Part shown: positions 15,735 to 38,375 of the stretch, one piece after another | Layout: the number at the start of each line of letters is the position of its first letter | How positions within the stretch are numbered: the stretch's first letter is position 1 | From: Candidatus Thorarchaeota archaeon | Lineage (GTDB): Archaea; Asgardarchaeota; Thorarchaeia; Thorarchaeales; Thorarchaeaceae | Direction of reading: 5' to 3' | Length of the DNA stretch: 64,000 bases | Assembly (NCBI GenBank): GCA_029858305.1 | Contig: JAOUFI010000003.1 | Location: 1 to 64,000 of the forward strand | Program-made: the position numbers and the translations under genes | Notes under the pieces: generated by a model | What the model saw: only the letters and a program-made list of their open reading frames with translations | What the model was told of the DNA's origin: nothing | Databases searched by the model: none

Positions 15735-16925
15735 CTAAAGGAACCAATTCAAAGCTTTAACAAGCGTTTTTGATGCGAGAGATATTGGAAGAGGAAGTCG
15801 ACATCGAATAAGCGGTTCGAGAAATCTAACTCCAGCAAGATTCATACAGATATCAGTTAATGTATCCGAGGGCATGACTGTATCAGCGACTCTAAGAACT
15901 TGAAGTGCAGTTTCCAGCTCAAGACCATATTCAGATCTCCACTTTCGTTCATAAAGGGACAAAGAAGCATTTTTTGTCAAATGGTTTACAACGTTCTCTC
16001 CGGCTATCTGACCACCGCATAATGCAGTCGGAATTCCACCTCCATTCGAAGCCATCACATGACCAGCTGCATCTCCGACTAGTATCACATTGTTTGACCA
16101 AGTTGTTTTAAGTGGGCCACCAACAGGGATAATCGCGCCTACTCTTTGCAGTATCTTTGCGTTTTTCGTTTTTTGAGCCAAAGTATTGAATGCAAACCGT
16201 TCAATATACCTCTTCAGTGGAGTCATATCGCCTCCGATGCTTCGTCGCATCCCGAAACCAATATTGGCTATGCCCTCACCCTTAGGTATGACCCATGCAT
16301 ATCCTCCTGGTGCAATCGAACTGCCAAAATACATCTCAACAATAGTTGGATCAATATCAACATCGCTCATGACATATTGTAGTGCTGGGCTTAGATCTGA
16401 TTCAGGCTGGATGAATCTAGGACCAAGGGAACGAGCCACAACTGACTTTGACCCATCAGCTCCAATAACTAACCTTGAGTTTATTGTTTGTACTGAATTC
16501 TTTGTTTTGACTTTCAATTCGTTCGTTATGGAGCGATTAATTACCGTAGAATCTAACTGAATCTCAGCACCAACATTTTCAGCTGAATCTGCAAGATATT
16601 GATCATATCGAGATCTATCAACAATGTTCGCTTCGAAAGGAAACTCGAAAGATTTTCCGTTTGGAGAAATCAGTCTTATGACTTGGGTCTGGTTTGTTAT
16701 AAACTCCGCTGGTACATTAACAGCTTTGGACATCCTCGTCGAGTTAGGAAAAAGTCTTCGTGCCTCTGATGGTGTAGGAATGAGCTCTCCACATTGCACT
16801 GGCGCACCAACTTTGCGGCGACGATCAAGAACGAGAGTATGCAGATCATTTCTTGCTGTCACTTCTGCTGCAGATGTCCCAGCTGGTCCAGCGCCAATCA
16901 CTGCGACATCATATATGATCTTCAT
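15735..16925 (-). CDS. Geranylgeranyl reductase family FAD protein
   Basis: DVAVIGAGPAGTSAAEVTARN, VGAPVQCGELIP, GDAAGHVMASNGGGIPTALCGGQIAGE. Confidence 0.88.
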   Translation of the reverse strand: MKIIYDVAVIGAGPAGTSAAEVTARNDLHTLVLDRRRKVGAPVQCGELIPTPSEARRLFPNSTRMSKAVNVPAEFITNQTQVIRLISPNGKSFEFPFEANIVDRSRYDQYLADSAENVGAEIQLDSTVINRSITNELKVKTKNSVQTINSRLVIGADGSKSVVARSLGPRFIQPESDLSPALQYVMSDVDIDPTIVEMYFGSSIAPGGYAWVIPKGEGIANIGFGMRRSIGGDMTPLKRYIERFAFNTLAQKTKNAKILQRVGAIIPVGGPLKTTWSNNVILVGDAAGHVMASNGGGIPTALCGGQIAGENVVNHLTKNASLSLYERKWRSEYGLELETALQVLRVADTVMPSDTLTDICMNLAGVRFLEPLIRCRLPLPISLASKTLVKALNWFL

Positions 16926-21473: not shown

Positions 21474-22847
21474 CTATCGACGTCTGCCAACCAATACTCC
21501 TAGGAGCAAGCCAACAAGAATACCACCAGCGGCTCCACCAACAATAATCAGAGTGTCTGCGCTAAATCCAGCAGGTGCTGGTAGATTCTCATAGTAGTAT
21601 GCCTTAGCATCTAGGAGATCTCTAAACGCAGAATTGATCGCATCAAATGTCTCCATTGGATCGTGGAAACCAGATGAACCATCATAGCCGTAATAGCCAA
21701 CAGTGGTTGAAGCAGCGTCAATCTCATCTTGCACATAGTTGGCAAGAGTGATATTTGCGCCAGCTGTCGCATTGTAAGCTGCTACTGCTGTTTCGAGGGC
21801 TGATGCTTCAGCTTCGAAATCTGCTACGAGGGCATCGTATGATGACATAATCTCTTCTAGTTGGTTGATAGCCCACGCTTCTTGTCCTTCATGGCACTCA
21901 GGTGCCTGACCACAGGCGTCTTCTGGGAGAACAGCAAAGGTATGGTTCATTTCAGGTCCATGTGAACCTTGTACAAAACCATGACAATCTGTACACTCAA
22001 CAATGCCGGTCAAGTCATGTGCGCCACCCGTCCATACATTGATGGTCGTGTGACGGGCTGAATTACCGTGGCAGAGACCACAGAGTTCTGTGGAATTCTC
22101 AGCCCATATCTGAGCTGGGTTCACTACCTGTGCGTCATGGATAGCGTGACATGCGGGACAAGTGATAGCGTTGTAGTTGCCTTCGGGATCAAGGTCATCG
22201 TCTTCACCGAAGAAGCCGTTGTAACCGAGGAATCCCTCAGCTGACATGCAGTGCATACAGTCTGATCCTGCATGGCTACTTGTTCTTAGATCTGTAAGTG
22301 AGTTGGCATGAGCCGATTCGGTGTAACCTTCGAGGCCACCGTGCCCTTCATGGATGTGACAAGAGGCACAAACACTACCATTTACTGAGTAGTATGGTGT
22401 GGATGTGTCATGACATGTCAGACAGTTGGTTCCAAATCCATCATGTGTATATGGATAGTCCGTGGCGTTACGCTCCGGAGTCCAACCAATTGCATGACAC
22501 TGAGCACATGTCGCGTTCCAAGCCAAATAGGTTCGTTCGCGAGCACCATTGACCGTGACGTTGCCTGATGTTTCATTATAGTATATTAGGTAACCTGAGT
22601 GGGTGGTCATATTCCAATATTCCCATGTCTGGTTATGACATTCACCTGTCAGGCATGAAACACCATTTTCTTGGTCAGGGGTTGCGAGTTCATGCGCCTC
22701 ACGTACTCTGTCAACGGATAATGTGACAGGTATTCCAGATCCCGTTGGTCCTAGGAGAATGGCGAAACCGATTAGGCAGAGGAACAGGTAATAACCCGCT
22801 ACCATCCGCTTATTGACCCCAGGGGTCTCTTCAGTGTAGTACACCAT
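21474..22847 (-). CDS. Membrane-anchored multiheme c-type cytochrome
   Basis: Six CXXCH (CAQCH, CLTCH, CASCH, CPACH, CGLCH, CTDCH), plus CLTGECH (CX4CH), CGQAPECH (CX5CH) and CMHCM; TM at both ends. Confidence 0.88.
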   Translation of the reverse strand: MVYYTEETPGVNKRMVAGYYLFLCLIGFAILLGPTGSGIPVTLSVDRVREAHELATPDQENGVSCLTGECHNQTWEYWNMTTHSGYLIYYNETSGNVTVNGARERTYLAWNATCAQCHAIGWTPERNATDYPYTHDGFGTNCLTCHDTSTPYYSVNGSVCASCHIHEGHGGLEGYTESAHANSLTDLRTSSHAGSDCMHCMSAEGFLGYNGFFGEDDDLDPEGNYNAITCPACHAIHDAQVVNPAQIWAENSTELCGLCHGNSARHTTINVWTGGAHDLTGIVECTDCHGFVQGSHGPEMNHTFAVLPEDACGQAPECHEGQEAWAINQLEEIMSSYDALVADFEAEASALETAVAAYNATAGANITLANYVQDEIDAASTTVGYYGYDGSSGFHDPMETFDAINSAFRDLLDAKAYYYENLPAPAGFSADTLIIVGGAAGGILVGLLLGVLVGRRR

Positions 22848-23207: not shown

Positions 23208-24404
23208 ATGAAACGTAAAGTCAGAATTGGACTTGTTCTAGTTGCGGCAATAGTCATTATTATGCTTGCAGCAGGCAATGCCTTTGCTCATAGCGAATAC
23301 GAAGTAGACTGTTCAACATGCCACGATGTTTCATCAGGCATGTCAATAACCACAGTATCGACAATAAACACAGGCCCAGGAGAAACTTTTCAGGTTGACG
23401 TTGTTGCGACTGGGTTGGCTCAAGATGTCTTTGTGCTACGCATACCGACTGATGTGGCCGATAATGACCAATTCACAATAAATGTGCCAGCGAACACAGA
23501 GAATCCAGGACTTGTTGAAGACAATGATGCACTAGACTTGGATTCGAACAACAATGGAATTCATGCAATCTACAATATTACAGCTCCCGCATTTTCTGGA
23601 ACATACACACTAATCATCTGGGCAGCTCAACATACTGACAATGGAATCAGTAGATCAATAACTGTAAATGTGATTGAGGGAGGTCCAGGTCCGTCAATTG
23701 GAGCACCATCAACAACGCCACAAGTTCCACTTGCGAACGAAGAATTCACTGTCACGGTTACTATTTCATCCTCAGATACTATAACCTATGTCAGACTGCA
23801 GTATAGTATTGATGGTGGGATTAATTGGCTGAATGTTACAATGTCTGAGTCAGGTGGTTTATATTCTGGTACAATACCCGGATTACCGAATAATCAGGAA
23901 GTGCACTGGCGAATCGTGGCAGCTGATTCTTCTGGAGAGAGAGTTAGTGCTACCTTAACATTCACTGTCGGCGTAATTCCGATAGAGCCTATAGAGATTC
24001 CCCAATTTCATTATGGATGGTTGCTAGGGGCGCCAGCTTTGGTTATTGCCTACATTGGCACGGCTCTCGAGTATTATGATGAAGAGCGATTCACGAGAAT
24101 CCATGGTATGATGCTAGGCATCGCTTATGTATTAACATCCATTAACGTTGTAAGTCTAGTAATGGAACCTGCAGGCGTTTGGGCCGCGATGAATCCTGTC
24201 TATCTGTTCGATCTGAGTAACATGCTCATATTCATGCATGCTTGGCATATCTGGCTTGGCATAATCAGCATGGTTCTGGGCACTCTTGCACTCATAACAC
24301 ATCTTGGAGGGTGGAAGACATGCAATCTTGGATTACCAGCAGTTGTGCTATGGACTATTCTGGGAATAATGGGCTTCTATCTAGGAGAGGTATTTGTTCC
24401 GTGA
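23208..24404 (+). CDS. Secreted monoheme (CXXCH) beta-sandwich protein with C-terminal 4-TM His-containing membrane domain
   Basis: Signal peptide; VDCSTCHD; VADNDQF...GTYTLIIWAAQ; second Ig-like domain; C-terminal TMs with RIHGMMLG, MHAWHIW and THLGGWK. Confidence 0.75.
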   Translation: MKRKVRIGLVLVAAIVIIMLAAGNAFAHSEYEVDCSTCHDVSSGMSITTVSTINTGPGETFQVDVVATGLAQDVFVLRIPTDVADNDQFTINVPANTENPGLVEDNDALDLDSNNNGIHAIYNITAPAFSGTYTLIIWAAQHTDNGISRSITVNVIEGGPGPSIGAPSTTPQVPLANEEFTVTVTISSSDTITYVRLQYSIDGGINWLNVTMSESGGLYSGTIPGLPNNQEVHWRIVAADSSGERVSATLTFTVGVIPIEPIEIPQFHYGWLLGAPALVIAYIGTALEYYDEERFTRIHGMMLGIAYVLTSINVVSLVMEPAGVWAAMNPVYLFDLSNMLIFMHAWHIWLGIISMVLGTLALITHLGGWKTCNLGLPAVVLWTILGIMGFYLGEVFVP

Positions 24405-25875
24405 GGTGATTGAAATGTCAAATACTGATATAGAAACTACAATCACACAAACTCCCGAGAAAGCAACAATAATAGAGATGCTGAAGGGAGTAGTGGGAGA
24501 AGAGAGAGTTTCAGACTCTGAGTTAGAAAGAGTGGTCTATAGTGGAGATCCTGCAGTACTACCTCAGTATCACTACAGATGGAAGAGAAAATACCTTGCT
24601 GATTACGCTGTCCGAGTTGAAAGTGAAGAAGAGATAGAAGGTATTCTGAAAATCGCACGTGAACATAACATACCTGTTGTCCCCAGAGGTGGAGCCTCAA
24701 GCTGTATGAGTTCTTCAAGCCCTAGCCGTGGAGGAATATCTCTCGATCTCAAGCCAATGAACAAGATACTAGAGATTAACAAAAAGGGTATGTTCGTAAG
24801 AGTCGAACCCGGAGTCACGTTCGAAGGACTTGCAAATAGCTTAGATAAAGAAAATCTCACTTTAGGTATCTATCCATCCAGTGCAAAGTCTGCAGTTATC
24901 GGAGGCTGGATTGCATGTGGAGGCAGAGGTGGAATCGGCACTCCATTCTATGGTGGACTTAAGGACCATATCTTGTCATTATCCGTCATAGGAGGAGATG
25001 GCGAAGTCAAGTTGTTAGAGGGAGATGATATCGACATCCTTCTACATTCCTATGGAATATTGGGTGTCATCTTTGAAATCAAACTGAAGGTACATGAGAA
25101 CGTTCGTGAATACAAGTCATTTAGTTATGGATTTAGAACAACCGATGAACTCTGCAATGCAATGGTGGAAATCACTAAGCTTGAGGTCAAGCCAATTTAT
25201 CTAAAAATTGCAGATGACGAGCTGCAGAAATTCAGCAATCCACTCGAAATCGGTAAGTACGTTCTATCAGTGACTTATGTCGATACACCATCAGATATCC
25301 CGCTCGAGGACTTGAAGTCGATCACTGGAAAATATGATGGCGTGTATATCAGCGATGAATTCTCCAAGAAGGAGTGGGATTTGAGGTATGATGCAGAATT
25401 CAATCCCAAAGAACATACAGAGACCTTGATGTTTCAAGAATTCTGGATGCCTGTTGAAAAAGTATCTAAGATGCTTTCAAAATATGAATCATATCGACGT
25501 TCGCACAGGATTCCAGCCCTATGGTTTGGGATGCTTGGTTCTCATAACGAAATGAGACTAGAACTCATGGCAATGATAGATGCAGCTCAGTACCTCAAAT
25601 TCATCTCAAGTAAGGGAATCTTGCACAAGATGATGAAGAGAGCAATCAAATTGGGAGGAGGACCATATACGATCGGTCTTCAGAATTCAATATACATGTC
25701 TCGTGCCTATCCAGCACGATTGACAGAGATGCAAGAGGCGAAGAAGAAGTGGGACCCTAACGGAATCATGAATCCGGATAGAGTCACAAGTTGTTTGACA
25801 TCATTCAGAAGAATAGATGTGCTCTTCTTGCTTGCTACTGCGTTTCGAAGACTCTCAAAATATGTAGGTGGGTGA
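24394..25875 (+). CDS. FAD-linked oxidase (GlcD-type)
   Basis: IPVVPRGGASSCMSSSSPSRGGISLDLKPMNKI...YPSSAKSAVIGGWIACGGRGGIG; C-terminal KWDPNGIMNPDR. Real start may be ATG ~24415. Confidence 0.85.
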   Translation: MFREVIEMSNTDIETTITQTPEKATIIEMLKGVVGEERVSDSELERVVYSGDPAVLPQYHYRWKRKYLADYAVRVESEEEIEGILKIAREHNIPVVPRGGASSCMSSSSPSRGGISLDLKPMNKILEINKKGMFVRVEPGVTFEGLANSLDKENLTLGIYPSSAKSAVIGGWIACGGRGGIGTPFYGGLKDHILSLSVIGGDGEVKLLEGDDIDILLHSYGILGVIFEIKLKVHENVREYKSFSYGFRTTDELCNAMVEITKLEVKPIYLKIADDELQKFSNPLEIGKYVLSVTYVDTPSDIPLEDLKSITGKYDGVYISDEFSKKEWDLRYDAEFNPKEHTETLMFQEFWMPVEKVSKMLSKYESYRRSHRIPALWFGMLGSHNEMRLELMAMIDAAQYLKFISSKGILHKMMKRAIKLGGGPYTIGLQNSIYMSRAYPARLTEMQEAKKKWDPNGIMNPDRVTSCLTSFRRIDVLFLLATAFRRLSKYVGG

Positions 25876-25884
25876 ATCGTTACA

Positions 25885-27009
25885 ATGAATATCGATAATC
25901 TTTCAGAAATACTACGGAATTGTGGTTCATGTAATTATTGTAGAGACACATGTCCTATGTATATCGAGCTAAAATCGGAGCTTGACAGTCCAGGAGGAAA
26001 ACTACGAGCTCTACGAGCATATGCCACTAAAATGAGGAATCCACCAATCGAGCTCCTACAGAGACTCTACTGTGCAGACTGTCGTCGTTGTGAAGCAATA
26101 TGTCCTGCTGGAGTCCCTGTCACAACCATCTGGCATGATGCCAAGAAACAACTACTAAAAACAGGAGCAGAGATGACAGAGTCACTTCAGAAAGTCCTCG
26201 ATTGGATAGAGAAAGAAGGGACACCCTTCATCGGATATGAATCTGATGATAGAACTTTATGGGCTGAAGATCTAAAGCTTCCTCCAGAATCAAATACAGC
26301 GATATTTTCAGGTTGCATGGGTTCATTCTGGTATCCAGATCAACCTGAAACAGTAGTCGACATGTTGCATAAATTAAATGTCAATGCAGGCTATGTGCCC
26401 AGCGAAGTCTGTTGTGGTCTATTCAACTACTGGGCAGGTGATGATGAGGGATTCGAAAAAGTAGTTCGCAAGAATTACGAGATGTTCAAGAAAGCAGGAG
26501 TCGACCATATTGTCACCGGTTGCGGTGGTTGCTATGGCACACTGGCAGAACATTATCCCCACATAATTCCCGACTTTGATATCAAGATTCTGCATACAGT
26601 AGAAGTCTTGGCGGATATGGTTCGCAACGGAGTTCTCACGTTCGAAGAGTTGGAAGGGAGCTATACTTATCACGATAGTTGTCATCTCGGAAGAGCTTTG
26701 GGTATCTATGAACCCCCAAGAGAGATCATAAAGGCGATTCCCGGACTTGAGTTCGTTGAGATGAAAAACAGCAGAGAAAGTTCGAACTGTTGTGGTGGTT
26801 TCCTTTCAGTTCTCGATCCAGATTTAGCTGAATCTGTAGGAAGACGGAGAGTTGCAGAAGCAGAAGAACTAGGAGTTGATGGGATTATCACGACATGCGT
26901 GTCGTGTTATAAGAACCTCAGCTATAATGCAAGGGAAACAAAGCTGAAAGTCATTCAGCTTGATGAACTAATACTAGATAAAGCTAGATCCTCTCAAGTA
27001 GGGGGGTAG
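25885..27009 (+). CDS. CCG-domain Fe-S oxidoreductase
   Basis: CGSCNYCRDTCP, CADCRRCEAICP, SEVCCGLF, GCGGCYG, SNCCGGF, TCVSCY. Confidence 0.88.
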   Translation: MNIDNLSEILRNCGSCNYCRDTCPMYIELKSELDSPGGKLRALRAYATKMRNPPIELLQRLYCADCRRCEAICPAGVPVTTIWHDAKKQLLKTGAEMTESLQKVLDWIEKEGTPFIGYESDDRTLWAEDLKLPPESNTAIFSGCMGSFWYPDQPETVVDMLHKLNVNAGYVPSEVCCGLFNYWAGDDEGFEKVVRKNYEMFKKAGVDHIVTGCGGCYGTLAEHYPHIIPDFDIKILHTVEVLADMVRNGVLTFEELEGSYTYHDSCHLGRALGIYEPPREIIKAIPGLEFVEMKNSRESSNCCGGFLSVLDPDLAESVGRRRVAEAEELGVDGIITTCVSCYKNLSYNARETKLKVIQLDELILDKARSSQVGG

Positions 27010-27028
27010 GAAGAGTTACATAGAAACA

Positions 27029-28372
27029 ATGGAGATGTTAGTTATGAGCAAAGAAAAAGGCACACGAGTTGTTGTCGTAGGTGGCGGAATTTCAGGATTC
27101 AGTTGTGCACTAGAATTGAAAGGTCTGAAGGCACGTTGTACGATTCTTGAAAAAGAGAAGACTGTCGGTGGTCGAGCAAGATCCTACACAGAATCGGGAT
27201 ATGTATTTGACCAAGGTCTGCACTTTTTCGTAGGTGGCTTCAAATCACTTATCCCAATTCTTGAGAGAAGTGGAGTAAAAATGACCACTGTCGGTGAGGG
27301 TGCAGTATGGTTGAAGGATGGGAATAGGCATCTCATCCGTAGATCAGCTGTTGAGCTCGCAAAATTCGGACTTCTTCCTACAGCCGATAGGGCTAAACTA
27401 GGATTACTAGTTCAGGAGAATATAAAGCGAAAGGAAGCCGAGTTCAAAGAACTTGACAAAATGACCTTTTCTGAATATGCCGAGGATAAGAAGATTCCAG
27501 AGTCTATTCAGAATGATTTCTATGAACCTCTTATTAAAACAGTCACCTTCATGCATCCAGATGAGGTTTCTGCAGGACAATATCTATACTCAGAACACTT
27601 GAGATTTGCATATGAGGATGGCTTTAGTGCTATGTATCCAGAACGTGGAGGATTAGGGAGTGTAGCATATACCCTGATGCTTCAAGCACGCAACTTTGGA
27701 GTAGAGCCACAAGTCAACTGTGCTGTCAAGCAAGTAATAATCGAGGATAGTAAAGTCGTTGGTGTTGATTATGAACAGGATGGGGAGAGCAAACACCTCG
27801 ATACCGATGCTGTTGTGATAACTGTTCCAATTGACCTCTTGCCCAACTTTGTGAAAATGAGTGATTTGCCAAAAGAGTTTACACAGAAGATTTCAAAATT
27901 CGAATATACTCCCTCTACTGTTGCTTACTTCGGTCTGAAGTCAAGAGTTTTGGATTTCAATGTTGGAGCCTTTGTACCAGGAAGAAAAATCAACATTGTT
28001 GCTGAAGCAAAGAGAGTATCAGGAGTTTTGGCACCAATTGGTGAGTCCCTCTTAACAGTAACCGGTATTGATAAAGAACTTCTCAAAATGAGTGATGAGG
28101 AAGCTACTCAAGAAATACTTGATGAGCTAGAGATTCTTATTCCCGGAGTAAAAGATAAGGTCACATGGAAGAAGAGTTGGAAAATCTGGAAATCAGTTCT
28201 TAAGCAGCCACCAGGAATCATGGATGACCGCTTGAAGTCTAACCGAACAGGTATACAAGGACTCTATGTTGCTGGTTCATATGCGAACTGCGGCATGTAT
28301 TATGCCTCTATGGAAGCAGCTTCTAGATCCGGTATTGCTTGCGCGGGCGAGATGATTGAGGATCTTAAGTGA
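27029..28372 (+). CDS. FAD-dependent amine oxidase/phytoene-desaturase-like oxidoreductase
   Basis: RVVVVGGGISGFSCALELKGLKARCTILEKEKTVGGRARSYTESGYVFDQGLHFF. Confidence 0.8.
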   Translation: MEMLVMSKEKGTRVVVVGGGISGFSCALELKGLKARCTILEKEKTVGGRARSYTESGYVFDQGLHFFVGGFKSLIPILERSGVKMTTVGEGAVWLKDGNRHLIRRSAVELAKFGLLPTADRAKLGLLVQENIKRKEAEFKELDKMTFSEYAEDKKIPESIQNDFYEPLIKTVTFMHPDEVSAGQYLYSEHLRFAYEDGFSAMYPERGGLGSVAYTLMLQARNFGVEPQVNCAVKQVIIEDSKVVGVDYEQDGESKHLDTDAVVITVPIDLLPNFVKMSDLPKEFTQKISKFEYTPSTVAYFGLKSRVLDFNVGAFVPGRKINIVAEAKRVSGVLAPIGESLLTVTGIDKELLKMSDEEATQEILDELEILIPGVKDKVTWKKSWKIWKSVLKQPPGIMDDRLKSNRTGIQGLYVAGSYANCGMYYASMEAASRSGIACAGEMIEDLK

Positions 28373-28393
28373 CTCTAAGTTCAAATTGATATA

Positions 28394-28417
28394 GCCAAGG
28401 GTGAGACTACCCTTGGC
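28394..28417. promoter_or_regulatory. Perfect 9-bp hairpin between the 27029 and 28464 genes
   Basis: GCCAAGGGT-GAGACT-ACCCTTGGC, followed by TATA-like AACTATATACT; no U-tract. Confidence 0.4.
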
Positions 28418-28463
28418 ATAACTATATACTGCAAGTATGAAATTCAGGACTAGATAGATTCCT

Positions 28464-29672
28464 GTGGTGTACTTTGAGATGACCAAACTGGACTTCATTG
28501 AGAGATACGGGCAAGAAAACGAACCGTATATCTGCGCATCATGTGGGAACTGCACTCTTGTGTGTCCAGTTTACAGCGAATTGAAATGGGAATCCTACGG
28601 TCCCAGAGGAAAGCTCCATGTCGTTAAATCGATAATCGAAGGAGAAGGTGAATTTGGAAAGGATTTCGCTCACAAAATATTCCTCTGCAATCTTTGTGAG
28701 CATTGTACTTCTGTTTGCACAACTGGTATTAGTCTTGACAGATTTTGGGAAGTAGCTAGAGCAGAGGTCAGAGAGAGGGGTCTCTTGCCAGCACCAGCAC
28801 AATTCGTTCTAAAGTCGGTCAAAGAACGTGGCGACATCATGTGGATGGGTTCTGCGGATAGACTCCTTTGGATGGAAGGTATTGATGAGCTGGTCAAAGA
28901 TCGCATCCTGAAAAAAGCCAAAGTTGCGTATTTTCTTGGTTGCAATGTTTCATTAAAATCGCAGCTACATGATGTTGCACAATCAATGGTTAAAATCATG
29001 GACTATGCTGGTATCGACTTTACCCTACTAGGTGAGAAAGAAGTATGTTGTGGTGCTCCTCTGAGTTGGGCTGGAAATCTTAAAGACATCAATGAAATGG
29101 CTGAGAAGAATCTGTCACTGATTCGTGAACTAGGTGTTGAAACTGTAGTTTTTAGCTGCCCCTCCTGTATTCAGACATGGTCGGAATACAGCAAATCTGT
29201 AAAAGAAGACAAGAGTATTGAGCTGTTGACAGCATCTCAATTCATCAACCGTCTAATTCGAGAGAAACGACTTCATTTCGAAGAACAACCTATGATTACG
29301 ACAACATTTCATGATCCATGCATATCTGCGAGGGTCTTGAAAGCGACTGAGGAACCGAGAGAGATAATGGATGAGATTCCCGGAGTATATCATGTCGAAA
29401 TGAATCCATCCCGACAAAACACGAGGTGCTGTGGCGCTCATGGTTTACTTGATGTTGTTGATCCAGTTCTTTCATCAAGAATTGCTGAAAGACGCCTTAG
29501 AGATGTTACTGTTACCCCGGCCACTCGAATTGTCACTGAGTGTCCGCGATGCATTCTAGCATTTGACCTAGCAAAATTTACAACTGGTTATGAGATGTTG
29601 GTACAAGATATTACACAACTTGTAGAAGGTGCTTTGTCGCCAAAAGAACAGGGAGGTGGCAAAGACCACTGA
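28464..29672 (+). CDS. CCG-domain Fe-S oxidoreductase
   Basis: CASCGNCTLVCP, CNLCEHCTSVCTTG, KEVCCGAP, SCPSCIQTW, RCCGAHG, ECPRCIL. Confidence 0.88.
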   Translation: MVYFEMTKLDFIERYGQENEPYICASCGNCTLVCPVYSELKWESYGPRGKLHVVKSIIEGEGEFGKDFAHKIFLCNLCEHCTSVCTTGISLDRFWEVARAEVRERGLLPAPAQFVLKSVKERGDIMWMGSADRLLWMEGIDELVKDRILKKAKVAYFLGCNVSLKSQLHDVAQSMVKIMDYAGIDFTLLGEKEVCCGAPLSWAGNLKDINEMAEKNLSLIRELGVETVVFSCPSCIQTWSEYSKSVKEDKSIELLTASQFINRLIREKRLHFEEQPMITTTFHDPCISARVLKATEEPREIMDEIPGVYHVEMNPSRQNTRCCGAHGLLDVVDPVLSSRIAERRLRDVTVTPATRIVTECPRCILAFDLAKFTTGYEMLVQDITQLVEGALSPKEQGGGKDH

Positions 29673-29740
29673 AAATCAATGAACTCCAAATTGGTGACAT
29701 CGTTGGGGCTGACAATGTATCCACGACTCCAGAAACTTGC

Positions 29741-31390
29741 ATGATATATTCAAAAGATGTGACAAGTCTGCCTGATCTAGCTCATCAAATTGTGAGTCCG
29801 AGATTTGATGTGGTGACTCAGCCTGTGGATGTGCTATCACTTCAAAATCTAATCATCTATGCCATAGAGAACGGGATACCTATTGTACCTCGGGGGAATG
29901 GCACCTCTGGCTGGGGTGGGGCAATTCCCACCAGAGGAGGTCTTTGTATCTCTCTTTCAGCAATGTCGGGAATTTTGTATTTTAACGAATTTGAGTCTGC
30001 TGTGACAGTGGAAACTGGAATTACTTGGAGAGATCTGTTGGCATTCTTGGAACGACTTGGGTTTACATTGCCGGTTTACCCATCAAGTGCCACTGCAGCT
30101 ACAGTAGGGGGTTTTGTCGCCAGTGGAGGTCTTGGAATAGGCTCAACTCGTAATGGAGACATTCTGAAGCAGGTTATTGGAATCGAAGCCATCTTACCAA
30201 ATGGGAAAATTGTCAGATTAGGTAGATTATTGTTGGATTCGAAAACTGATCCACTCAGGGAGAAAGTTGAGGAAGGCAACTCCTGGTTAAGTGAGAAGCT
30301 ATCTGATGCTGGACTTGGCTCTCCAGAACAAGAAACCAAGCTTTTCACTGGGACATATGGCACACTTGGCATCATAACTAAAGTTACACTCAAGACAATA
30401 CCCAACCTCCAGCTCATCCCCTTTTCATGCTCATTTGATCGTATGACTGACCTAGTAAGAGCAGCTGATAGAATACTCTCTGAGGTCAAACCATACTACA
30501 TGAGATTTCTTGCAGATAATTACACTTCTAAATTAAGAGCCTTGAGTGAATATGAAAATGAGAGTGGAAAGTATATTCTCACAGGAGCTCTTCTTGATAC
30601 TATCTACCAAAATGAGGATAACATTGAGATAATCAAGACTGTAACAAACGAGGAAAAAGGATATGTACTAGATGATAAGCGATCATGGTTTTATTGGTCT
30701 GAAAGGCTCTATCCTTTGAGAATCAAGCGACATGGACCAAGCCTTGTTCCTGCAGAAATGCTCGCGCCTATGAACATGCTTCCAGAAATACTTGAAAAGA
30801 CAAAGGCAGAACTTCGAAATTCAAAGGTAGCAATTGAGGGGACACTAAGCAACGATGGCACAACATCATTCATGGTCTGGATTTTGGATGATGAGAGAAA
30901 AAAAGTTTCATTCACCATTGGCTGGTACAGATCTTTTCAGATTGCATCACTCGCTGAAAGGTTCGGAGGGCTCCCATATGCAGTAGGGCTTTGGAACGGG
31001 AGGCATGCAAGAAAATTCTATGGAAATGACTCTTATAAAAATCTCAAAGTAATGAAGAAGAAACTTGATCCATCTAACATAATGAATCCGCTGAAGGTCT
31101 TTGGAGGTAGAGTTACGATTGGTCGTGAATCAATGCTCCTCGGATTTCTATTGGGATTTATTGTAACAATGATTGGAGGATGGTTATTGCCAGGATTACT
31201 TAATCTTGATTGGCTGAATCAATTTCTAAGCTTGAGTCTGGTACAGTTCTTATATTTCCCTAATCTGTGGCTTCTTGGACTAGCTGGAGGTTTGATAGCA
31301 GTCATGATAATCCGATTCATGAGATTAAGCCAGGCACTCGCAATTGGAATTCCAATTCTTAGGATTCTGAGTAAACTGCTTCGACGATAG
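29741..31390 (+). CDS. FAD-linked oxidase (GlcD-type) with C-terminal TM segments
   Basis: IPIVPRGNGTSGWGGAIPTRGGLCISLSAMSGI...YPSSATAATVGGFVASGGLGIGS; C-terminal hydrophobic helices. In-frame sequence homologous to paralogs extends upstream to ~29671, so the start is uncertain. Confidence 0.85.
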   Translation: MIYSKDVTSLPDLAHQIVSPRFDVVTQPVDVLSLQNLIIYAIENGIPIVPRGNGTSGWGGAIPTRGGLCISLSAMSGILYFNEFESAVTVETGITWRDLLAFLERLGFTLPVYPSSATAATVGGFVASGGLGIGSTRNGDILKQVIGIEAILPNGKIVRLGRLLLDSKTDPLREKVEEGNSWLSEKLSDAGLGSPEQETKLFTGTYGTLGIITKVTLKTIPNLQLIPFSCSFDRMTDLVRAADRILSEVKPYYMRFLADNYTSKLRALSEYENESGKYILTGALLDTIYQNEDNIEIIKTVTNEEKGYVLDDKRSWFYWSERLYPLRIKRHGPSLVPAEMLAPMNMLPEILEKTKAELRNSKVAIEGTLSNDGTTSFMVWILDDERKKVSFTIGWYRSFQIASLAERFGGLPYAVGLWNGRHARKFYGNDSYKNLKVMKKKLDPSNIMNPLKVFGGRVTIGRESMLLGFLLGFIVTMIGGWLLPGLLNLDWLNQFLSLSLVQFLYFPNLWLLGLAGGLIAVMIIRFMRLSQALAIGIPILRILSKLLRR

Positions 31391-31613
31391 ATTCAAACCA
31401 TCATGTTTGCCTTAGCAAAAGATTGAAGTAAACAATGTAGTTTGCATCTCTAATCCTAGATGTATATTTGTATATTGAAGTTTCAAATGATATCCAAGAA
31501 TGTAGTTTAACCAATATGCTCAAATATGAGACATATGTTCCAAAACGAAACTTAGCCAAGGTATTTCAACTAGGTAAAGGTACAAAAAGAAACCAAAATA
31601 GGGTGCAAATGGA

Positions 31614-32210
31614 ATGAAACGAAACCGTGTATCGAGAGTCGCCGTCGCCATTGGCTTCTTGCTATTATTAGTTGCTACTGCTGCGGGATCAGTCGGAGCT
31701 TTTCCAAGCCAGACAAACGAATGTGGAACAACTGGCTGTCATGATACGCTCGGAACTTTGACTATTGCCTCTAATTCGACGAGCATGAGTGCAACAACAG
31801 GAGAACCTTTTGCTCTTCTTCTAGATGCAGGAAATGGTGCGGATTGGATAGCTATCAGGAATGGGTGGGCGGATAATTCTCAATTCTTGATTTCTGTAGA
31901 GGAGGTAGAGGATGGTTCTGCGAATGACACAAATACAGCCTCAGGAGCAATATCTGTCGAGGTAACATTCACACCATTATCCTCTGGTGATTTGACAATT
32001 CGTATTTGGACAGCTGCTGGAGGCGATTTAGCATCTTCATTAGATATCACTGTCACAGTGACAGGTGAATCAATAACAACAACAACACCACCGCCCAACA
32101 ATGAAGCAGATTTACTTTGGACCTGGAGAATAATGATGATAATACTACCTGTTTCAGTAGGTGTAGTTCTTCTGATTCTAGGTTTTACTGTATTCAAGAG
32201 GAGATCATGA
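31614..32210 (+). CDS. Secreted monoheme (CX4CH) beta-sandwich protein with C-terminal TM anchor
   Basis: Signal peptide; NECGTTGCHDT; GWADNSQFLI...FTPLSSGDLTIRIWTAAGG; TM and FKRRS. Confidence 0.78.
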   Translation: MKRNRVSRVAVAIGFLLLLVATAAGSVGAFPSQTNECGTTGCHDTLGTLTIASNSTSMSATTGEPFALLLDAGNGADWIAIRNGWADNSQFLISVEEVEDGSANDTNTASGAISVEVTFTPLSSGDLTIRIWTAAGGDLASSLDITVTVTGESITTTTPPPNNEADLLWTWRIMMIILPVSVGVVLLILGFTVFKRRS

Positions 32211-32224
32211 AGTAGGTGATATGA

Positions 32225-32728
32225 ATGGCATTACATCCAGTTTTTGTTCACTTCCACACTGGAATCCTAGCAGCTGCGGCCGCTCTAGCATTGATCAGTC
32301 TAATCTTGCGATTCTTGTTTCGGGATAACATTCGCACTCCTGGGACACGGCTAGCTCGACTGTTTCATTATATTGATGTGTTTATCTTCATAGGTAGCAT
32401 AATCGGCTTCATCGGATTAATTGCAGGTATGATGACAGGATTCATGGAACCAGATTATTCTCTAGCAACACTTGAAGCATTACCGGCTATGAGGTTCAAA
32501 ATTCTCTGGTCCATAGTATGTGTTGAAATATACCTCTTCCTAATGGTTGTCCGAGCTAGACTAGGAGATCGGGTTTGGGTAGGCACGGCTAGCTCCCTAA
32601 TCTACGGTATTCTTGTTATAGTCGGTGGTCTGCTCATAATCATTATTGCTGCACTTGGAGGAATTGCAGTATATGGAGAATCCATACTATCACCCATCCT
32701 TGATTGGTTGGGACTACCATGGCCATGA
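32225..32728 (+). CDS. DUF2231-like 4-TM membrane protein
   Basis: ALHPVFVHFHTGILAAAAALALISL; four TMs with conserved-type His residues. Confidence 0.65.
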   Translation: MALHPVFVHFHTGILAAAAALALISLILRFLFRDNIRTPGTRLARLFHYIDVFIFIGSIIGFIGLIAGMMTGFMEPDYSLATLEALPAMRFKILWSIVCVEIYLFLMVVRARLGDRVWVGTASSLIYGILVIVGGLLIIIIAALGGIAVYGESILSPILDWLGLPWP

Positions 32729-32743
32729 TAAGGAGATTCAGTC

Positions 32744-33922
32744 ATGACAAAACCCTATGAACCTCTCAAAATTGAGGGACTTGATATTGAACCAACAGTG
32801 TGTGCGAGATGTGGTTTCTGCACCTTCGTGTGCCCAGCATATCTTGACACACTTTGGGATTCTCAATCACCGAGAGGAAAGCTATACCAACTGAGAGACC
32901 TTATTAAAAATAAGAAGAAAATCCCTGCTGACTTTGCAGCCAGGATATTCAATTGTACCTTGTGTGGAGCATGCCAGGAAATTTGTCAGACAAACATACC
33001 TCTTTTGAGATTCTGGCAACTTACGAGAGAAGAGATTGGCAATCTTGAAGAATGGCCAGAAATCGTGAATTATATCGATACCGCCTTACAAGAGACCCAA
33101 AACATCATGGAAATGGACCAGGATGACAGAACTCTCTGGACCGATATGGTTGATGACCTTGTAGAAAAGAGAACTGGAATCAAAGCTGAAGTTGCGTATT
33201 TTGCAGGCTGCAACATTTCATTCAAAGGCACCCTCGCTCATCTTGGTGAGAATACGATAAAAGTAATGGATGCAGCAGGTGTCGATTTCACAATACTTGG
33301 CAGCGAGGAGTTCTGCTGCGGCAATCCATATTTTGTAGCTGGTGGCTTCGATAAAGCTCGAGAGCTTGCAATGCATAATCTAGCAGCGCTCAAGGAATTA
33401 GGCGTGAAGACGGTTGTATTCAACTGCCCTGGATGTCATCGAGCCTTTGCAGAGGAATATCCCCATCTACTCGGAAAGGATTCGGTAGAGGGATTAGAGT
33501 TTCTGCCTTTCTCCGAGTTTACCCTAAGACTTCTCAAAGAAGGAAAAATCAAGTTCACAAAGAATTACCCTCACACAGTCGCATGGCATGATCCATGTGA
33601 ACTTGGACGTCATCAGAATATCTACAATCCTGCTCGAGAAGTCCTTAATGCAATTCCCGGACTCAAACTGCGGGAGATGAAGCATGCAAGAAACAAGGCA
33701 AGATGCTGTGGCGGTGGAGGACTGCTGAAGGGGACTAATCCAATGATGTCGGTGAGAATATCGGGTCGGAGAGTTGAAGAAGCGGAAAAGACCGGAGCAG
33801 AATTCATAGCTAGCGAATGTCCATCGTGTACGATGTCATTCAATGACGGAATTGAGCACAAGAATTCCAAAATGAAATTCAAGGATTTGTCACAGATTGT
33901 CGTGGAAGCTCTTGGATTATAG
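32744..33922 (+). CDS. CCG-domain Fe-S oxidoreductase
   Basis: CARCGFCTFVCP, CTLCGACQEICQ, EEFCCGNP, NCPGCHRAF, RCCGGGG, ECPSCTM. Confidence 0.9.
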   Translation: MTKPYEPLKIEGLDIEPTVCARCGFCTFVCPAYLDTLWDSQSPRGKLYQLRDLIKNKKKIPADFAARIFNCTLCGACQEICQTNIPLLRFWQLTREEIGNLEEWPEIVNYIDTALQETQNIMEMDQDDRTLWTDMVDDLVEKRTGIKAEVAYFAGCNISFKGTLAHLGENTIKVMDAAGVDFTILGSEEFCCGNPYFVAGGFDKARELAMHNLAALKELGVKTVVFNCPGCHRAFAEEYPHLLGKDSVEGLEFLPFSEFTLRLLKEGKIKFTKNYPHTVAWHDPCELGRHQNIYNPAREVLNAIPGLKLREMKHARNKARCCGGGGLLKGTNPMMSVRISGRRVEEAEKTGAEFIASECPSCTMSFNDGIEHKNSKMKFKDLSQIVVEALGL

Positions 33923-33933
33923 GTGGTGAAGAG

Positions 33934-35655
33934 ATGTTACGAAAACAACATTTCCAGAAACTTGCAGATATTGTGGGTGAAGATTATTTCTCTGCTGAAG
34001 GATATATGACTCACCTCTACTCACACGACATAGCAGCGCTCCCAGGAATTGTAAACGATGTTCTCAATCCCCATGCGGAAGCAATAGCGCAACCAACTAC
34101 CTCTGAAGTTGTATCAAATCTGCTGAAATACTGTAAAGAGAATAATATCCAGGTTGTCCCGCGAGGACATGGTACATCTGGATATGGTGGAGCGTTGCCT
34201 ACCAAGGGTGGCCTGGTTGTTGAAATGACCAGGATGAATGAGATATACAATATTGACAAAGGTAGCATGACAATTGAGGTAGGTGCCGGTATCATTTGGG
34301 GGAAACTGCTAGAACTCCTCGAGGATGAAGGCCTCTCTGCGGCTGCGTATCCATCAAGTGCACCTTCTAGTACTGTAGGCGGCTGGATTGCAGCTGGGGG
34401 CTCAGGCATCGGCAGTACAAAATACGGGGGAATCAGGGAGCAAGTAGTAGAATTGGAAGTTGTCTTGCCTGATGGAGAGATCATAAGGACAAGTCAATCA
34501 GAAGATTCTGTATTCAATGAAGGAAAAACAAAACCATTCTTTGGTGGTGATGACTCATTCTATTGGGAATCTGAAGAAAGCTCTGCCCCCAATAAAGAGT
34601 CTACTTCATTATTTGTAGATAGCAATGGCACCTTGGGAATAATAACGAAGGTGGTAATGAAGGTCATTCCGCTTCGCAAAATTAAGCCTTTAACAATATC
34701 ATTCCCGAATAAAGAACAGACAATGGGTGCAATGCAGGCTATTCTTCGCATCACACAGCCTTTCTACCTTCACTTCATAACAGACGAATTCTTTGGTATG
34801 TTGAAGGAGGTAGGAAAAGCCCCTGATGTGGCGGGTGAATGGTTAGTTCTCTGTGCTTTAGAGGGAACAGATGAAGAGAATGACGAGGTTGCAGGAAAAA
34901 TCGCTGAAGCAATGGCGATGTATCATGGGACAGTTGAGTCAGACGAGATAGGACATCATGAATGGGATGAACGGTTCTATCCCATGAGAATTAAAAGACT
35001 GGGTCCAAGTCTTGCACCTTCCGAGGTCTATGTACCCTTGGAGAGAATGGTCGATTTCATCGACCACTGCTACAAGCACTTCAAGGGGGAGAGAATGGCG
35101 ATGGAAGGAGCTGTCAATCACCGAAATGAAGTTGCGGTACTCACTTGGTTCTTGGATGATGAACGCCGGAGAATTCCATTTTTGTTTGGATGGTATCGTT
35201 CTCTAGATGTCATCAACATTGGCATAAAGAATGGAGGACGTGCCTATTCCATAGGTATGTGGAATGTAGCTCATTCACGCAAGTTCTACGGAAAAGAAGA
35301 CTACACAAAGATGGCAAAACTCAAACAGAGAACAGATTCTAAGAATTACCTCAATTCGCATAAAGTATTCCCAGGACCGCTATATCTGAGTACAAGAATA
35401 GGATTACTAATCATGTTTGCAGCCGCATTCGTGGTGCCTATCGTAATCATGTTTGCATGGTGGTTAGCTCCAAGTGTAGTTGCGGCTTATGTTCCATGGG
35501 TCGTTGTCAATGACATTGCTAGCTTCTTGCTATGGTTCATAGTCGGACTGGGAGTCGGATTTGTGGTCCAAGAATTTGCCAATCTCATACCGATATCGGT
35601 CGTACTTTCGATTGGATTACCATTCCTCAGATTGGGAAGGAAGATATTTCACTAA
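33934..35655 (+). CDS. FAD-linked oxidase (GlcD-type) with C-terminal TM segments
   Basis: IQVVPRGHGTSGYGGALPTKGGLVVEMTRMNEI...YPSSAPSSTVGGWIAAGGSGIGS; C-terminal TMs. Confidence 0.88.
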   Translation: MLRKQHFQKLADIVGEDYFSAEGYMTHLYSHDIAALPGIVNDVLNPHAEAIAQPTTSEVVSNLLKYCKENNIQVVPRGHGTSGYGGALPTKGGLVVEMTRMNEIYNIDKGSMTIEVGAGIIWGKLLELLEDEGLSAAAYPSSAPSSTVGGWIAAGGSGIGSTKYGGIREQVVELEVVLPDGEIIRTSQSEDSVFNEGKTKPFFGGDDSFYWESEESSAPNKESTSLFVDSNGTLGIITKVVMKVIPLRKIKPLTISFPNKEQTMGAMQAILRITQPFYLHFITDEFFGMLKEVGKAPDVAGEWLVLCALEGTDEENDEVAGKIAEAMAMYHGTVESDEIGHHEWDERFYPMRIKRLGPSLAPSEVYVPLERMVDFIDHCYKHFKGERMAMEGAVNHRNEVAVLTWFLDDERRRIPFLFGWYRSLDVINIGIKNGGRAYSIGMWNVAHSRKFYGKEDYTKMAKLKQRTDSKNYLNSHKVFPGPLYLSTRIGLLIMFAAAFVVPIVIMFAWWLAPSVVAAYVPWVVVNDIASFLLWFIVGLGVGFVVQEFANLIPISVVLSIGLPFLRLGRKIFH

Positions 35656-35733
35656 TACATATCTGATGAATCCGAATCATGTAGACAGACTAAAAAGATA
35701 GTCAGTGGGACATCAGAACAGAAGATGATGTAG

Positions 35734-36414
35734 ATGTCGGCAAAAGCAGTCGTTGTGAGAAATCTCACTCGAAGATACGGTTACAGAGTGGCATTAAAAG
35801 ATATATCACTAGATTTCTCAGAGAATGGGATTCAAGGATTATTTGGAGCTAATGGAGCAGGAAAAACAACACTAATGCGAATCATATCAACGCTGCTACG
35901 CCCTCATAGTGGAACAATCTCCGTTATGGGATTTGATCCGCAAGAAGAACCAGAAGAAGTGAAGAAGTATCTTGGTTTGGTGGGTGACAAAACGCTTCTA
36001 TACGATGAACTATCAGGCATTGAAAATCTTCGATTCTATTCCAAGCTCTATGGATTGCATCGCGACTTCTTTGAAACTCAAGTTGAGGAATTATCTCAAC
36101 GTTTTGCCATCAAAACCTGGCTTGAGGAACCTGTGAAGAATTTATCAACAGGGCTCAAGAAAAGACTGGATATTGTTCGAAGCTTGATTCACAATCCTAT
36201 GCTACTACTTCTGGATGAGCCATTCAGCGGACTAGATAAAGATACTACTGAGGATTTTTGGGACTACCTCAATGAACATAGAAACACAAGAACAACAATT
36301 GTGACAACTCACAATTTAGCCCTTGGTGCTAATTTGTGCGACGAATTTGTCACTCTCAGGAAAGGAGTAGTAATTAATCAAGGTCCAATTTCTCAGTTTG
36401 ATCAGACACTCTGA
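35734..36414 (+). CDS. ccmA: Heme exporter-type ABC ATPase CcmA
   Basis: GANGAGKTTL Walker A, LSTGLKKRLDIVRSLIHNPMLLLLDEPFSGLD; first gene of a ccmABCDE run. Confidence 0.85.
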   Translation: MSAKAVVVRNLTRRYGYRVALKDISLDFSENGIQGLFGANGAGKTTLMRIISTLLRPHSGTISVMGFDPQEEPEEVKKYLGLVGDKTLLYDELSGIENLRFYSKLYGLHRDFFETQVEELSQRFAIKTWLEEPVKNLSTGLKKRLDIVRSLIHNPMLLLLDEPFSGLDKDTTEDFWDYLNEHRNTRTTIVTTHNLALGANLCDEFVTLRKGVVINQGPISQFDQTL

Positions 36415-36423
36415 GGTGATATT

Positions 36424-37104
36424 ATGACGTCAGGCCTAGGCGCAGCATTAGCAATCGCAAAGAAAGACATCATCATTCAGTTACGTAAGAAGTTTGAAGC
36501 ATTCTCAATGTTCCTATTTGCCCTCATCGCAGTCCTCGCATATTCCTTTGCGTTGGTTTCACAAGGATCTATACCAGCAGATGTAGGTAGTGCAATGCTG
36601 TGGGTCATCATTTTCTTCATGGGGATGTTTGGCTTCGCTCCCATTTTCCTCTCCGAGTCAGAAACTGGCACATTACGCGGTCTCGCTACTGCGCCGATTC
36701 CCGCATGGGCGGTCTATGTTGGTAAGGTGATCTATGGTTTTGTTCTGATGGGAATAGTTGAGGTCTTTCTGGTACCGATTATTTCTATACTGTTTGGTTT
36801 TTCTTTTCTAAATGATATTCCACTTACTGTTGCTGTACTCGTAGTTGGAACACTAGATTTGTCAGCAGTTGGTTCAATGGCCTCGGCTCTAGTAATGCCT
36901 TCAGAGGCAAAAGCAACAGTATTCCCCCTTGTCTATTTCCCTACTGCAACGTCAGGTCTAATTCTCCTCATTGAAATCACCAAGATCATTGTATTGGGTC
37001 CAGGCGTTGTGCCGATTATGTTACTATTTGAAATACTTCTTGCTCATCTGATTGCAATGCTGACACTATCGGCTTCTGTGTTTCACTTTGCACTTTCACC
37101 TTGA
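36424..37104 (+). CDS. ccmB: Heme exporter protein CcmB
   Basis: 226 aa 6-TM; FAPIFLSESETGTLRGLATAPIPAWAVYVGKV. Confidence 0.85.
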   Translation: MTSGLGAALAIAKKDIIIQLRKKFEAFSMFLFALIAVLAYSFALVSQGSIPADVGSAMLWVIIFFMGMFGFAPIFLSESETGTLRGLATAPIPAWAVYVGKVIYGFVLMGIVEVFLVPIISILFGFSFLNDIPLTVAVLVVGTLDLSAVGSMASALVMPSEAKATVFPLVYFPTATSGLILLIEITKIIVLGPGVVPIMLLFEILLAHLIAMLTLSASVFHFALSP

Positions 37105-37172
37105 ATGCGTGTCTTCAGCAAAACGTTCATATTGCAAGTAGTAGGGGAATCAGCAGTTCGAGTTGAAAAGCC

Positions 37173-37841
37173 GTGAGCAATACCAGACTGATATTTCTCG
37201 CAGTAGCAGCAGTGATATCATTACTCTATGTCTACATGACATGGATCTTTTCCCCGCCAGATGCGATACTTGGAGAAAACGTTCGCATTTTCTTCCAGCA
37301 CATTGCACCCGCTCTTGTCGCATACGGATTATTTGGAGGGACGTTACTGTGCGGAGTGATGTATCTGTGGAAGGGAGATCTAAAATATGACATCATCGGA
37401 GCAGTATCAATCAAACTTGGACTGTTGTTCACTACGATTACCCTATTGAGTGGAATGTTGTGGGCTAATGCAGCATGGCATTCACCTTGGAATTGGGATC
37501 CCCGCGAAACGACCACTCTCATCTTATGGATTGCATATGCATGTATTCTGGCATATCGAGCTTCTGTAACCGATAGGGAAGCGAGAGCTCAATTTGGTTC
37601 CATTTTCGGAATTGTCGCGTTCCCGATGGTGTTATTGAGCTATCTTTCAATTCGAATATGGAATACTCTTCATCCAATCGTAATTGATGAATCTGGATTC
37701 CATATGGGAATCGAACACATGATGACTCTGTTCGTAGCTATGATTGCTGTCACAATGATTGCACTGATTATGGTCGAGCTAGCGTACAAAGTTGATTCAG
37801 CATATGAAAAGTTGATGAGAATAAGAATGTCAAGGAGTTAA
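37173..37841 (+). CDS. ccmC: Heme exporter protein CcmC
   Basis: AAWHSPWNWDPRETTTLILW (WWD-type), 6 TM; GTG start. Confidence 0.88.
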   Translation: MSNTRLIFLAVAAVISLLYVYMTWIFSPPDAILGENVRIFFQHIAPALVAYGLFGGTLLCGVMYLWKGDLKYDIIGAVSIKLGLLFTTITLLSGMLWANAAWHSPWNWDPRETTTLILWIAYACILAYRASVTDREARAQFGSIFGIVAFPMVLLSYLSIRIWNTLHPIVIDESGFHMGIEHMMTLFVAMIAVTMIALIMVELAYKVDSAYEKLMRIRMSRS

Positions 37842-37845
37842 GAAT

Positions 37846-37986
37846 ATGCAACAGTTTGAACTATTCATCGTAGCCACAATATTTTGGGGTGGTATTTTCA
37901 TTTTCCTATTATACCTTCTAATGAGAATGGCTGGAATCGAGAAACAACTCAAAGTTGTAGAAGCACAGATCGATGGAGAACAATAG
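37846..37986 (+). CDS. ccmD: CcmD-like small membrane protein, 46 aa
   Basis: Read directly (missing from ORF track): MQQFELFIVATIFWGGIFIFLLYLLMRMAGIEKQLKVVEAQIDGEQ; one TM plus amphipathic tail, between ccmC and ccmE. Confidence 0.75.
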   Translation: MQQFELFIVATIFWGGIFIFLLYLLMRMAGIEKQLKVVEAQIDGEQ

Positions 37987-37988
37987 AA

Positions 37989-38375
37989 ATGAGAAAGAAA
38001 ACTCGGATGGCACTTGTTGCAGTCATCTTGGTAGTTACTATTAGTATTGTCGGATATCAAATGTTGAATCTTTATGTCGACCCCTACCTGAGTGTAGATG
38101 CCGTAGTCGAGCATCCTGAATCATTTATGGGTCGTACAATACAGGTCAAAGGAGAGCTTCAGGCAGGATCTCTGACCATTGGTCAAGATAATGTGACATT
38201 AGTATTAGTGGGAGATAATCACACGATCATAGTGCTGTTGCTAGGTGAAGTTCCTGATATGGTGGATGGTCAAGATATTGTTGCGATTGGTACGCTAGAA
38301 TCAGCCACTCTCATAAGAGCAACTCAGATTCTAACTTCATGCCCAAGTAAGTACGAAGCCCCAACTACAACATAG
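37989..38375 (+). CDS. ccmE: Cytochrome c maturation heme chaperone CcmE, Cys-type
   Basis: TM then HPESFMGRTIQVKGELQAGSLTIGQDNVTLVLVGDNHTIIVLLLGEVPDMVDGQDIVAIGTL...CPSKYE; start set to ATG 37989 rather than 37884. Confidence 0.88.
   Translation: MRKKTRMALVAVILVVTISIVGYQMLNLYVDPYLSVDAVVEHPESFMGRTIQVKGELQAGSLTIGQDNVTLVLVGDNHTIIVLLLGEVPDMVDGQDIVAIGTLESATLIRATQILTSCPSKYEAPTTT

Follow-up and report, generated by a model that had tools for sequence, protein, structure and literature searches.

How do Thorarchaeota, an archaeal lineage akin to the ancestors of eukaryotes, dispose of their electrons? Asgard archaea have mostly been described as fermenters or syntrophs, and for Thorarchaeota the matter is an open question. 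A locus that bears on it lies in the first 64 kb (the window) of a 102.7-kb contig, JAOUFI010000003.1, from a 3.04-Mb metagenome-assembled genome of a Candidatus Thorarchaeota archaeon. Within the window, a 12-kb block (positions 23208–35655) repeatedly combines a GlcD-like flavoprotein, an iron-sulfur protein with CCG domains, and membrane proteins. A preliminary description of this DNA proposed a paralogous family of membrane-tied 2-hydroxyacid (or other) dehydrogenases that feed quinone or surface hemes. The analysis presented here favors, with a probability of about one half, a conserved and co-inherited electron-transfer cassette in which the GlcD-CCG heads are probably electron-transfer or alternative-substrate units rather than glycolate or lactate dehydrogenases.

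Modules M1 to M3 lie within the 12-kb block, M4 is found in relatives only, and M5 comprises the GlcD-NuoB fusion at 3603 together with the CCG protein at 10458. Genes are referred to by the first number of their coordinates (Table 1), except for the GlcD of M2, which is named after its first ATG (29741).

Conservation of the cassette among Thorarchaeota

Two sets served for comparison: 37 genomes of the same family (many >90% complete) and 231 genomes of the phylum. Absences in them come from draft genomes and so are no proof, yet they recur over the 37 family genomes. The named relatives of GlcD 33934 are Candidatus Thorarchaeota, with the closest at 94% identity, and a contig scan with peptide patterns, which reach close relatives only, matched only Thorarchaeota and records of the same family.

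Every gene of the block is retained in 11 or more other genomes of Thorarchaeota (G002, G003, G006, G007, G009, G011, G012, G021, G024, G031, and G034), in the order cyt23208-GlcD-CCG-27029-CCG-GlcD-cyt31614-DUF2231-CCG-GlcD, with contig ends interrupting several of the copies. A second comparison adds two genomes with this order, G224 and G225. Genes for heme c maturation (Ccm) come after the block wherever the contigs of relatives extend far enough. In G036, M1 and 27029 are found at one place and M3 with M4 at another, and CcmB was not found in this genome. M4 is made up of a 136-amino-acid (aa) protein with four transmembrane (TM) helices, a GlcD, and a CCG protein. It is located between GlcD 33934 and CcmA in relatives (loci L066, L069, L070, L072, L074, L077/L078, and L079) and is missing from the window.

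GlcD 29741 and cyt31614 are separated by 223 bp (31391–31613; ~200 bp in relatives), and this gap holds a stretch conserved in same-genus genomes (TTAACCAATATGCTC...), possibly a promoter or regulatory element. Because of the gap and the conserved upstream stretch, cyt31614 is more likely the first gene of a second unit than the last of M2, and the block is read as two units, 23208–31390 and 31614–38375 (cyt31614-DUF2231-CCG-GlcD-CcmABCE). The split between M2 and M3 given previously was probably misplaced. At the position where most orthologs of the M2 GlcD start with ATG or GTG, the window has no ATG, GTG, or TTG; translation probably starts at a CTG that overlaps the stop codon of the CCG gene.

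Pfam agrees with the earlier count of four GlcD proteins (FAD_binding_4 plus FAD-oxidase_C; 3603 on the minus strand and 24394, 29741, and 33934 on the plus strand) and four CCG proteins (two CCG domains plus Fer4_8; 10458, 25885, 28464, and 32744) in 32 kb, and the open reading frames, domains, and coordinates described before were correct. GlcD-CCG pairing alone is routine in this genome, since most of its ~15 GlcD-like and ~20 CCG genes adjoin. Under random placement, three GlcD starts within 9.5 kb have a probability of ~0.012 and four within 30 kb one of ~0.005. Synteny is stronger evidence than these values that the block is not a product of chance.

Distribution across the 37 family genomes points the same way. 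The c-heme beta-sandwich proteins and CcmB occur together in 13, the protein only in two, CcmB only in none, and neither in 22; for 27029 and CcmB, the respective counts are 12, two, one, and 22. The Fisher values (~3e-8 and ~6e-7) are descriptive and the tests not independent, because the genomes are related. As the heme motif is conserved in orthologs and CcmA, B, C, E, and F are present, the locus has the makings of a c-type cytochrome system, and the earlier link of GlcD-CCG pairs to c-type cytochromes and Ccm holds on the grounds of conserved synteny and co-occurrence.

The gene at 27029, a constant member between M1 and M2, had been overlooked. It belongs to the Amino_oxidase family, with phytoene desaturase and HpnE as the nearest models, and ranks with the most conserved genes (89–98% identity within the genus). 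In the 231 phylum genomes, it is confined to cassette-bearing Thorarchaeota and three Asgard genomes of other families (36–37% identity).

Shared ancestry and altered active site of the heads

The GlcD proteins of M1 to M4 and the GlcD-NuoB of M5 form one clade, arranged internally as (M1,M4) and (M2,M3,M5). A quick tree held all 11 other GlcD proteins of the genome, and a careful tree held six, with five long-branched ones left out. The CCG tree recovers (M2,M3) with support of 99/96 and (M2,M3,M5) with 99/99. Because these CCG partners branch congruently with their GlcDs, co-duplication of GlcD and CCG is supported for M2, M3, and M5. The GlcDs of M1 and M4 pair as well, and the CCG side does not recover that pairing. 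Asgard sequences from two genomes, G058 and G220, group with M2/M3/M5 in the GlcD and CCG trees alike. The proposed family of paralogs is supported with respect to descent, but the 2-hydroxyacid function suggested for it is not.

The active site speaks against this function. H386, H393, and E430, as aligned to E. coli GlcD, are retained in none of the 33 cassette-clade GlcDs. Position 431, the histidine of the EHG motif, is Tyr in all 28 sequences of M1 to M4 and His in all five of M5. The alignment joins distant sequences and single columns are open to some doubt; even so, there is clearly neither an EHG nor a GHAGDGN motif. Scores against the GlcD equivalog TIGR00387 were 108–144 bits versus a cut-off of 567.9. 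On the comparison of active sites, plain hydroxyacid dehydrogenases were rejected as the default reading. In a hydropathy scan, GlcD 29741 and GlcD 33934 carry hydrophobic C-terminal tails, in agreement with the TM tails reported for both.

The CCG proteins carry no TM helix in the same scan. Two complete five-Cys motifs (C...CC...CxxC) are present in all 26 CCG proteins of M1, M2, M3, and M5. The M4 protein has one complete motif, as does E. coli GlpC, and E. coli GlcF has none; both motifs are also kept by several other GlcD-partner CCGs of the genome, which are unrelated. CCG 32744 matches HdrB structures, and its best sequence match in the PDB is 9ojn, the mycobacterial EtfD. The bridging cysteines take part in catalysis in HdrB, and EtfD has Thr and His in their place (PMC13083937).

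Association with complex I is evident from two arrangements. The GlcD-NuoB of M5 adjoins NuoA/J/C, with the M1–M4 group ~20 kb distant in the window. In G058 and G220, two of the three genomes from other Asgard families that have a 27029 homologue, a single strand carries NuoM-N (NuoL-M-N in G220), two small open reading frames, and GlcD-CCG-27029 homologue-MenA, followed by a geranylgeranyl reductase (GGR) and a prenyl synthase (IPPS), and no cytochrome. This set is the smallest form of the unit. The M5 CCG at 10458 adjoins GlcD-NuoB in relatives without cyt6120 at that place. Strong matches to the GlcD-NuoB fusion (3603–5543) also turn up in most of this Thorarchaeota family.

Membrane proteins, heme, and lipid carrier

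Heme c motifs occur in four proteins, namely CAPCH in 6120, CSTCH in 23208, CGTTGCH in 31614, and seven motifs in 21474. A plain CXXCH count misses the motif of 31614, which is of the CX4CH type. Spacing in 23208 and 31614 varies among orthologs (CX2CH, CX3CH, and CX4CH), with the two cysteines and the histidine invariant. In a structural model of 31614 (confidence 75.6), an immunoglobulin (Ig)-like beta-sandwich is flanked by a signal helix on one side and a TM anchor on the other, and a fold search with this model returned only generic Ig-like beta-sandwiches. The heme/beta-sandwich domain of 6120 is homologous to 31614. Single-heme homologs of 6120 in relatives differ greatly in length.

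The gene at 23208 had been described as a 4-TM cytochrome. Four C-terminal helices appear in a low-confidence model, and three, not counting the signal, in the hydropathy scan; at this model quality, fold matches carry no information. His268, 299, 344, 347, and 365 are invariant among orthologs of 23208. Of these, H299, H344, and H347 are common to its 4-TM part and the 136-aa protein of M4, H268 is nearly invariant, and H365 is invariant only among 23208 orthologs. For 32225, the DUF2231 match stays below the cut-off (20.1 against 26.4 bits). Because conserved histidines occur in the 4-TM part of 23208, in the M4 136-aa protein, and in 32225, these 4-TM proteins may bind b-heme. None of them matched the HdrE family.

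As for the quinone that the heads were said to feed, a MenA-type prenyltransferase is linked (TIGR00751, 118.4 vs a cut-off of 102.15 bits). MenA-like genes are nearly family-wide and often lie near GlcD-NuoB, and a 27029 homologue adjoins MenA in other Asgard genomes. MqnA/D had no match in the 37 family genomes, and MenD matches there were all below cut-off, other Men enzymes lying outside the search. Canonical menaquinone was rejected on these grounds. It is less likely that the MenA-like gene encodes the digeranylgeranylglyceryl phosphate synthase of archaeal lipids, given its score above the menA cut-off and the existence of two further UbiA genes, neither of them clearly assigned. An aerobic chain was likewise rejected, as no heme-copper oxidase was found in the family.

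Table 1. Genes of the cassette and of associated functions in the window.
Feature	Coordinates	Strand	Remarks
M1 membrane protein: signal/TM, one c-heme motif, Ig-like beta domains, C-terminal 4-TM domain	23208..24404	+	
M1 GlcD-like flavoprotein, canonical metal/EHG site absent	24394..25875	+	Pfam, alignment
M1 HdrD-like protein with two cubane [4Fe-4S] motifs; both five-Cys CCG motifs complete	25885..27009	+	
Flavin adenine dinucleotide (FAD)-dependent Amino_oxidase/phytoene-desaturase-like protein	27029..28372	+	constant cassette member
M2 HdrD-like CCG protein	28464..29672	+	
M2 GlcD-like flavoprotein, C-terminal TM tail	29669..31390	+	first ATG 29741; likely start CTG 29669
Single-heme (CX4CH) Ig-like beta-sandwich protein, C-terminal TM anchor	31614..32210	+	likely first gene of second unit
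4-TM membrane protein, DUF2231-like (sub-cutoff), invariant His4, 9, 11, 48	32225..32728	+	
M3 HdrD-like CCG protein	32744..33922	+	
M3 GlcD-like flavoprotein, C-terminal TM tail	33934..35655	+	
CcmA, CcmB, CcmC, CcmE (heme c maturation), immediately downstream of M3	35734..38375	+	
CcmF/NrfE-type heme lyase	17049..19121	-	
Membrane-anchored multiheme cytochrome c, 7 motifs; divergent from cassette, kept beside it in relatives	21474..22847	-	
M5 GlcD fused to NuoB (complex I), GlcD clade of M1-M4	3603..5543	-	
M5 HdrD-like CCG partner	10458..11684	+	
1414-aa single-heme protein, many Ig/PKD-like repeats, C-terminal TM	6120..10364	+	
MenA-type UbiA prenyltransferase	13497..14600	-	TIGR00751 over cut-off
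Polyprenyl diphosphate synthase	14683..15723	+	
Geranylgeranyl-reductase family protein	15735..16925	-	TIGR02032 over cut-off

Other genes of the window include one for a 735-aa protein (19143–21350, minus strand) between CcmF and the multiheme cytochrome 21474, a position kept in G002, G003, G021, and G028. A membrane DUF7530 domain is joined to a pyridoxamine-phosphate-oxidase-like domain at 11740–13002 (plus strand), with a second such protein at 12971. A heliorhodopsin (Pfam PF18761, E 4.8e-90) is encoded at 46872–47690 (plus strand).

Known systems and the proposed electron route

The closest described system, only brushed in the preliminary description as "HdrD-type", is the HdrD/GlcD associated with Fpo in Korarchaeia, Bathyarchaeia, and Methanomethylicia (PMC10667645, PMC6783470, PMC8407382). 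Both combine a GlcD-like flavoprotein and an HdrD-like CCG protein tied to a complex-I-like enzyme. The unit in those papers is cytosolic and was proposed to act on CoM-S-S-CoB, whereas the Thorarchaeota head occurs in tandem, with TM tails, His-rich 4-TM and c-heme proteins, a flavoprotein of the 27029 type, and Ccm. Mycobacterial EtfD, an iron-sulfur/heme b oxidoreductase that transfers electrons from electron-transfer flavoprotein (ETF) to menaquinone by feeding a membrane b-heme/quinone site (PMC13083937), shares the two [4Fe-4S] motifs and two CCG domains. However, it is a single polypeptide with TM helices of its own and without the Hdr bridging cysteines, while the cassette keeps CCG and membrane parts apart, retains the full cysteine sets, and has a GlcD at the point of electron delivery by ETF. 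E. coli GlcDEF and the archaeal pairs of D-lactate dehydrogenase with an HdrD-like protein also set an FAD_binding_4 plus FAD-oxidase_C protein beside a CCG protein; unlike GlcDEF, the cassette has no GlcE and no metal/EHG site, and its five-Cys motifs are complete rather than degenerate. In anaerobic methanotrophic (ANME) archaea, Mco is a proposed methanophenazine:cytochrome c oxidoreductase composed of a VhtC cytochrome b and a multiheme cytochrome (PMC9012536). The job proposed for it, from lipid carrier through cytochrome b to exterior c-hemes, is the same, but no homologous GlcD/CCG head has been described for Mco. A literature search, with most subscription journals and preprints outside its reach, found no description of the cassette itself.

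The preferred reading of the heads is that of HdrD/GlcD units associated with complex I, multiplied and set on different membrane parts. Each repeated unit would have a cytosol-facing head in which a GlcD-like FAD protein is joined by an iron-sulfur protein of the HdrD type. In Thorarchaeota with cytochromes, the heads probably join the cytosol or a MenA-derived carrier to exterior c-hemes. Its membrane part would be the 4-TM protein with exterior c-heme in M1, the TM tail of GlcD in M2, a TM tail plus the DUF2231-like 4-TM protein in M3, the 136-aa 4-TM protein in M4, and the NuoB fusion in M5. FAD, the iron-sulfur clusters, 4-TM b-heme and/or a MenA-derived prenylated carrier, and exterior single- and multiheme c-cytochromes could exchange electrons. 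We infer donor, carrier, and acceptor; the direction would most likely be outward, with a syntrophic partner or an acceptor outside the cell drawing on a complex-I/lipid-carrier pool. Taken together, these parts might constitute an undescribed respiratory branch, with multiplied complex-I-type GlcD/HdrD heads on membrane heme proteins, a prenylated carrier whose head group comes from none of the known menaquinone routes, and surface cytochromes, although such a branch can be put forward only tentatively.

Several points weigh against this interpretation. The CCG protein of M4 has no clear history in common with its GlcD, a grouping of the M1 and M4 CCGs being neither recovered nor rejected (p-AU 0.48, approximately unbiased test). 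The case for b-heme consists of conserved histidines, with a poor model for 23208 (mean predicted local distance difference test, or pLDDT, 54.8). With no MqnA/D or MenD found in the family, the carrier is a putative one, and the co-occurrence values are of the descriptive kind noted above. Finally, the complete Hdr-type cysteine sets could point to disulfide catalysis rather than mere electron transfer.

The last point is the basis of one alternative, in which the CCG proteins would work on a thiol/disulfide couple at non-cubane clusters and GlcD and the membrane proteins would relay the electrons. The five-Cys motifs of M1, M2, M3, and M5 include the bridging cysteines that HdrB uses for catalysis and EtfD has exchanged (PMC13083937), CCG has matches to HdrB structures, and the Fpo-HdrD/GlcD association offers a precedent (PMC10667645, PMC6783470). 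For these organisms, however, there is no known disulfide substrate, and motif completeness may not signal catalysis because unrelated GlcD-partner CCGs also keep both motifs; we consider such units improbable. Dehydrogenases for 2-hydroxyacids or other small substrates, each paralog with its own substrate and all feeding quinone or surface hemes, would be in keeping with the GlcD fold and family, with a GlcD-CCG pairing like that of GlcDF and the archaeal D-lactate dehydrogenases, and with the conserved Arg/Lys/Tyr residues that persist, and divergent paralogs could reflect divergent substrates. This alternative is unlikely in view of the metal ligands missing from all 33 GlcDs compared, an EHG histidine kept only in M5, scores far from the equivalog cut-off, the fusion of one paralog to NuoB, and the lack of substrate-metabolism genes in the cassette.

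A further proposal is that the GlcD-CCG-27029 set makes or modifies the prenylated carrier, through redox chemistry on its head group or tail, with the cytochrome link secondary. The set does lie with MenA, GGR, and prenyl synthase in G058 and G220 and partly in G043, 27029 resembles the isoprenoid-acting phytoene desaturase and HpnE, and the family genomes yielded none of the known head-group genes sought (MqnA/D and MenD). Yet biosynthesis needs no tandem GlcD-CCG copies, these copies co-occur with Ccm and c-heme proteins, and the NuoB fusion and NuoL-M-N linkage indicate electron transport, which makes a biosynthetic role very unlikely.

If the electron-transfer reading is true, outward electron transfer in Thorarchaeota would become directly testable through the cassette, with its complex-I-type heads, MenA-linked lipid pathway, and exterior c-hemes. 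The loss of the hydroxyacid site is also a caution against calling such GlcD genes in metagenomes evidence of lactate or glycolate oxidation.

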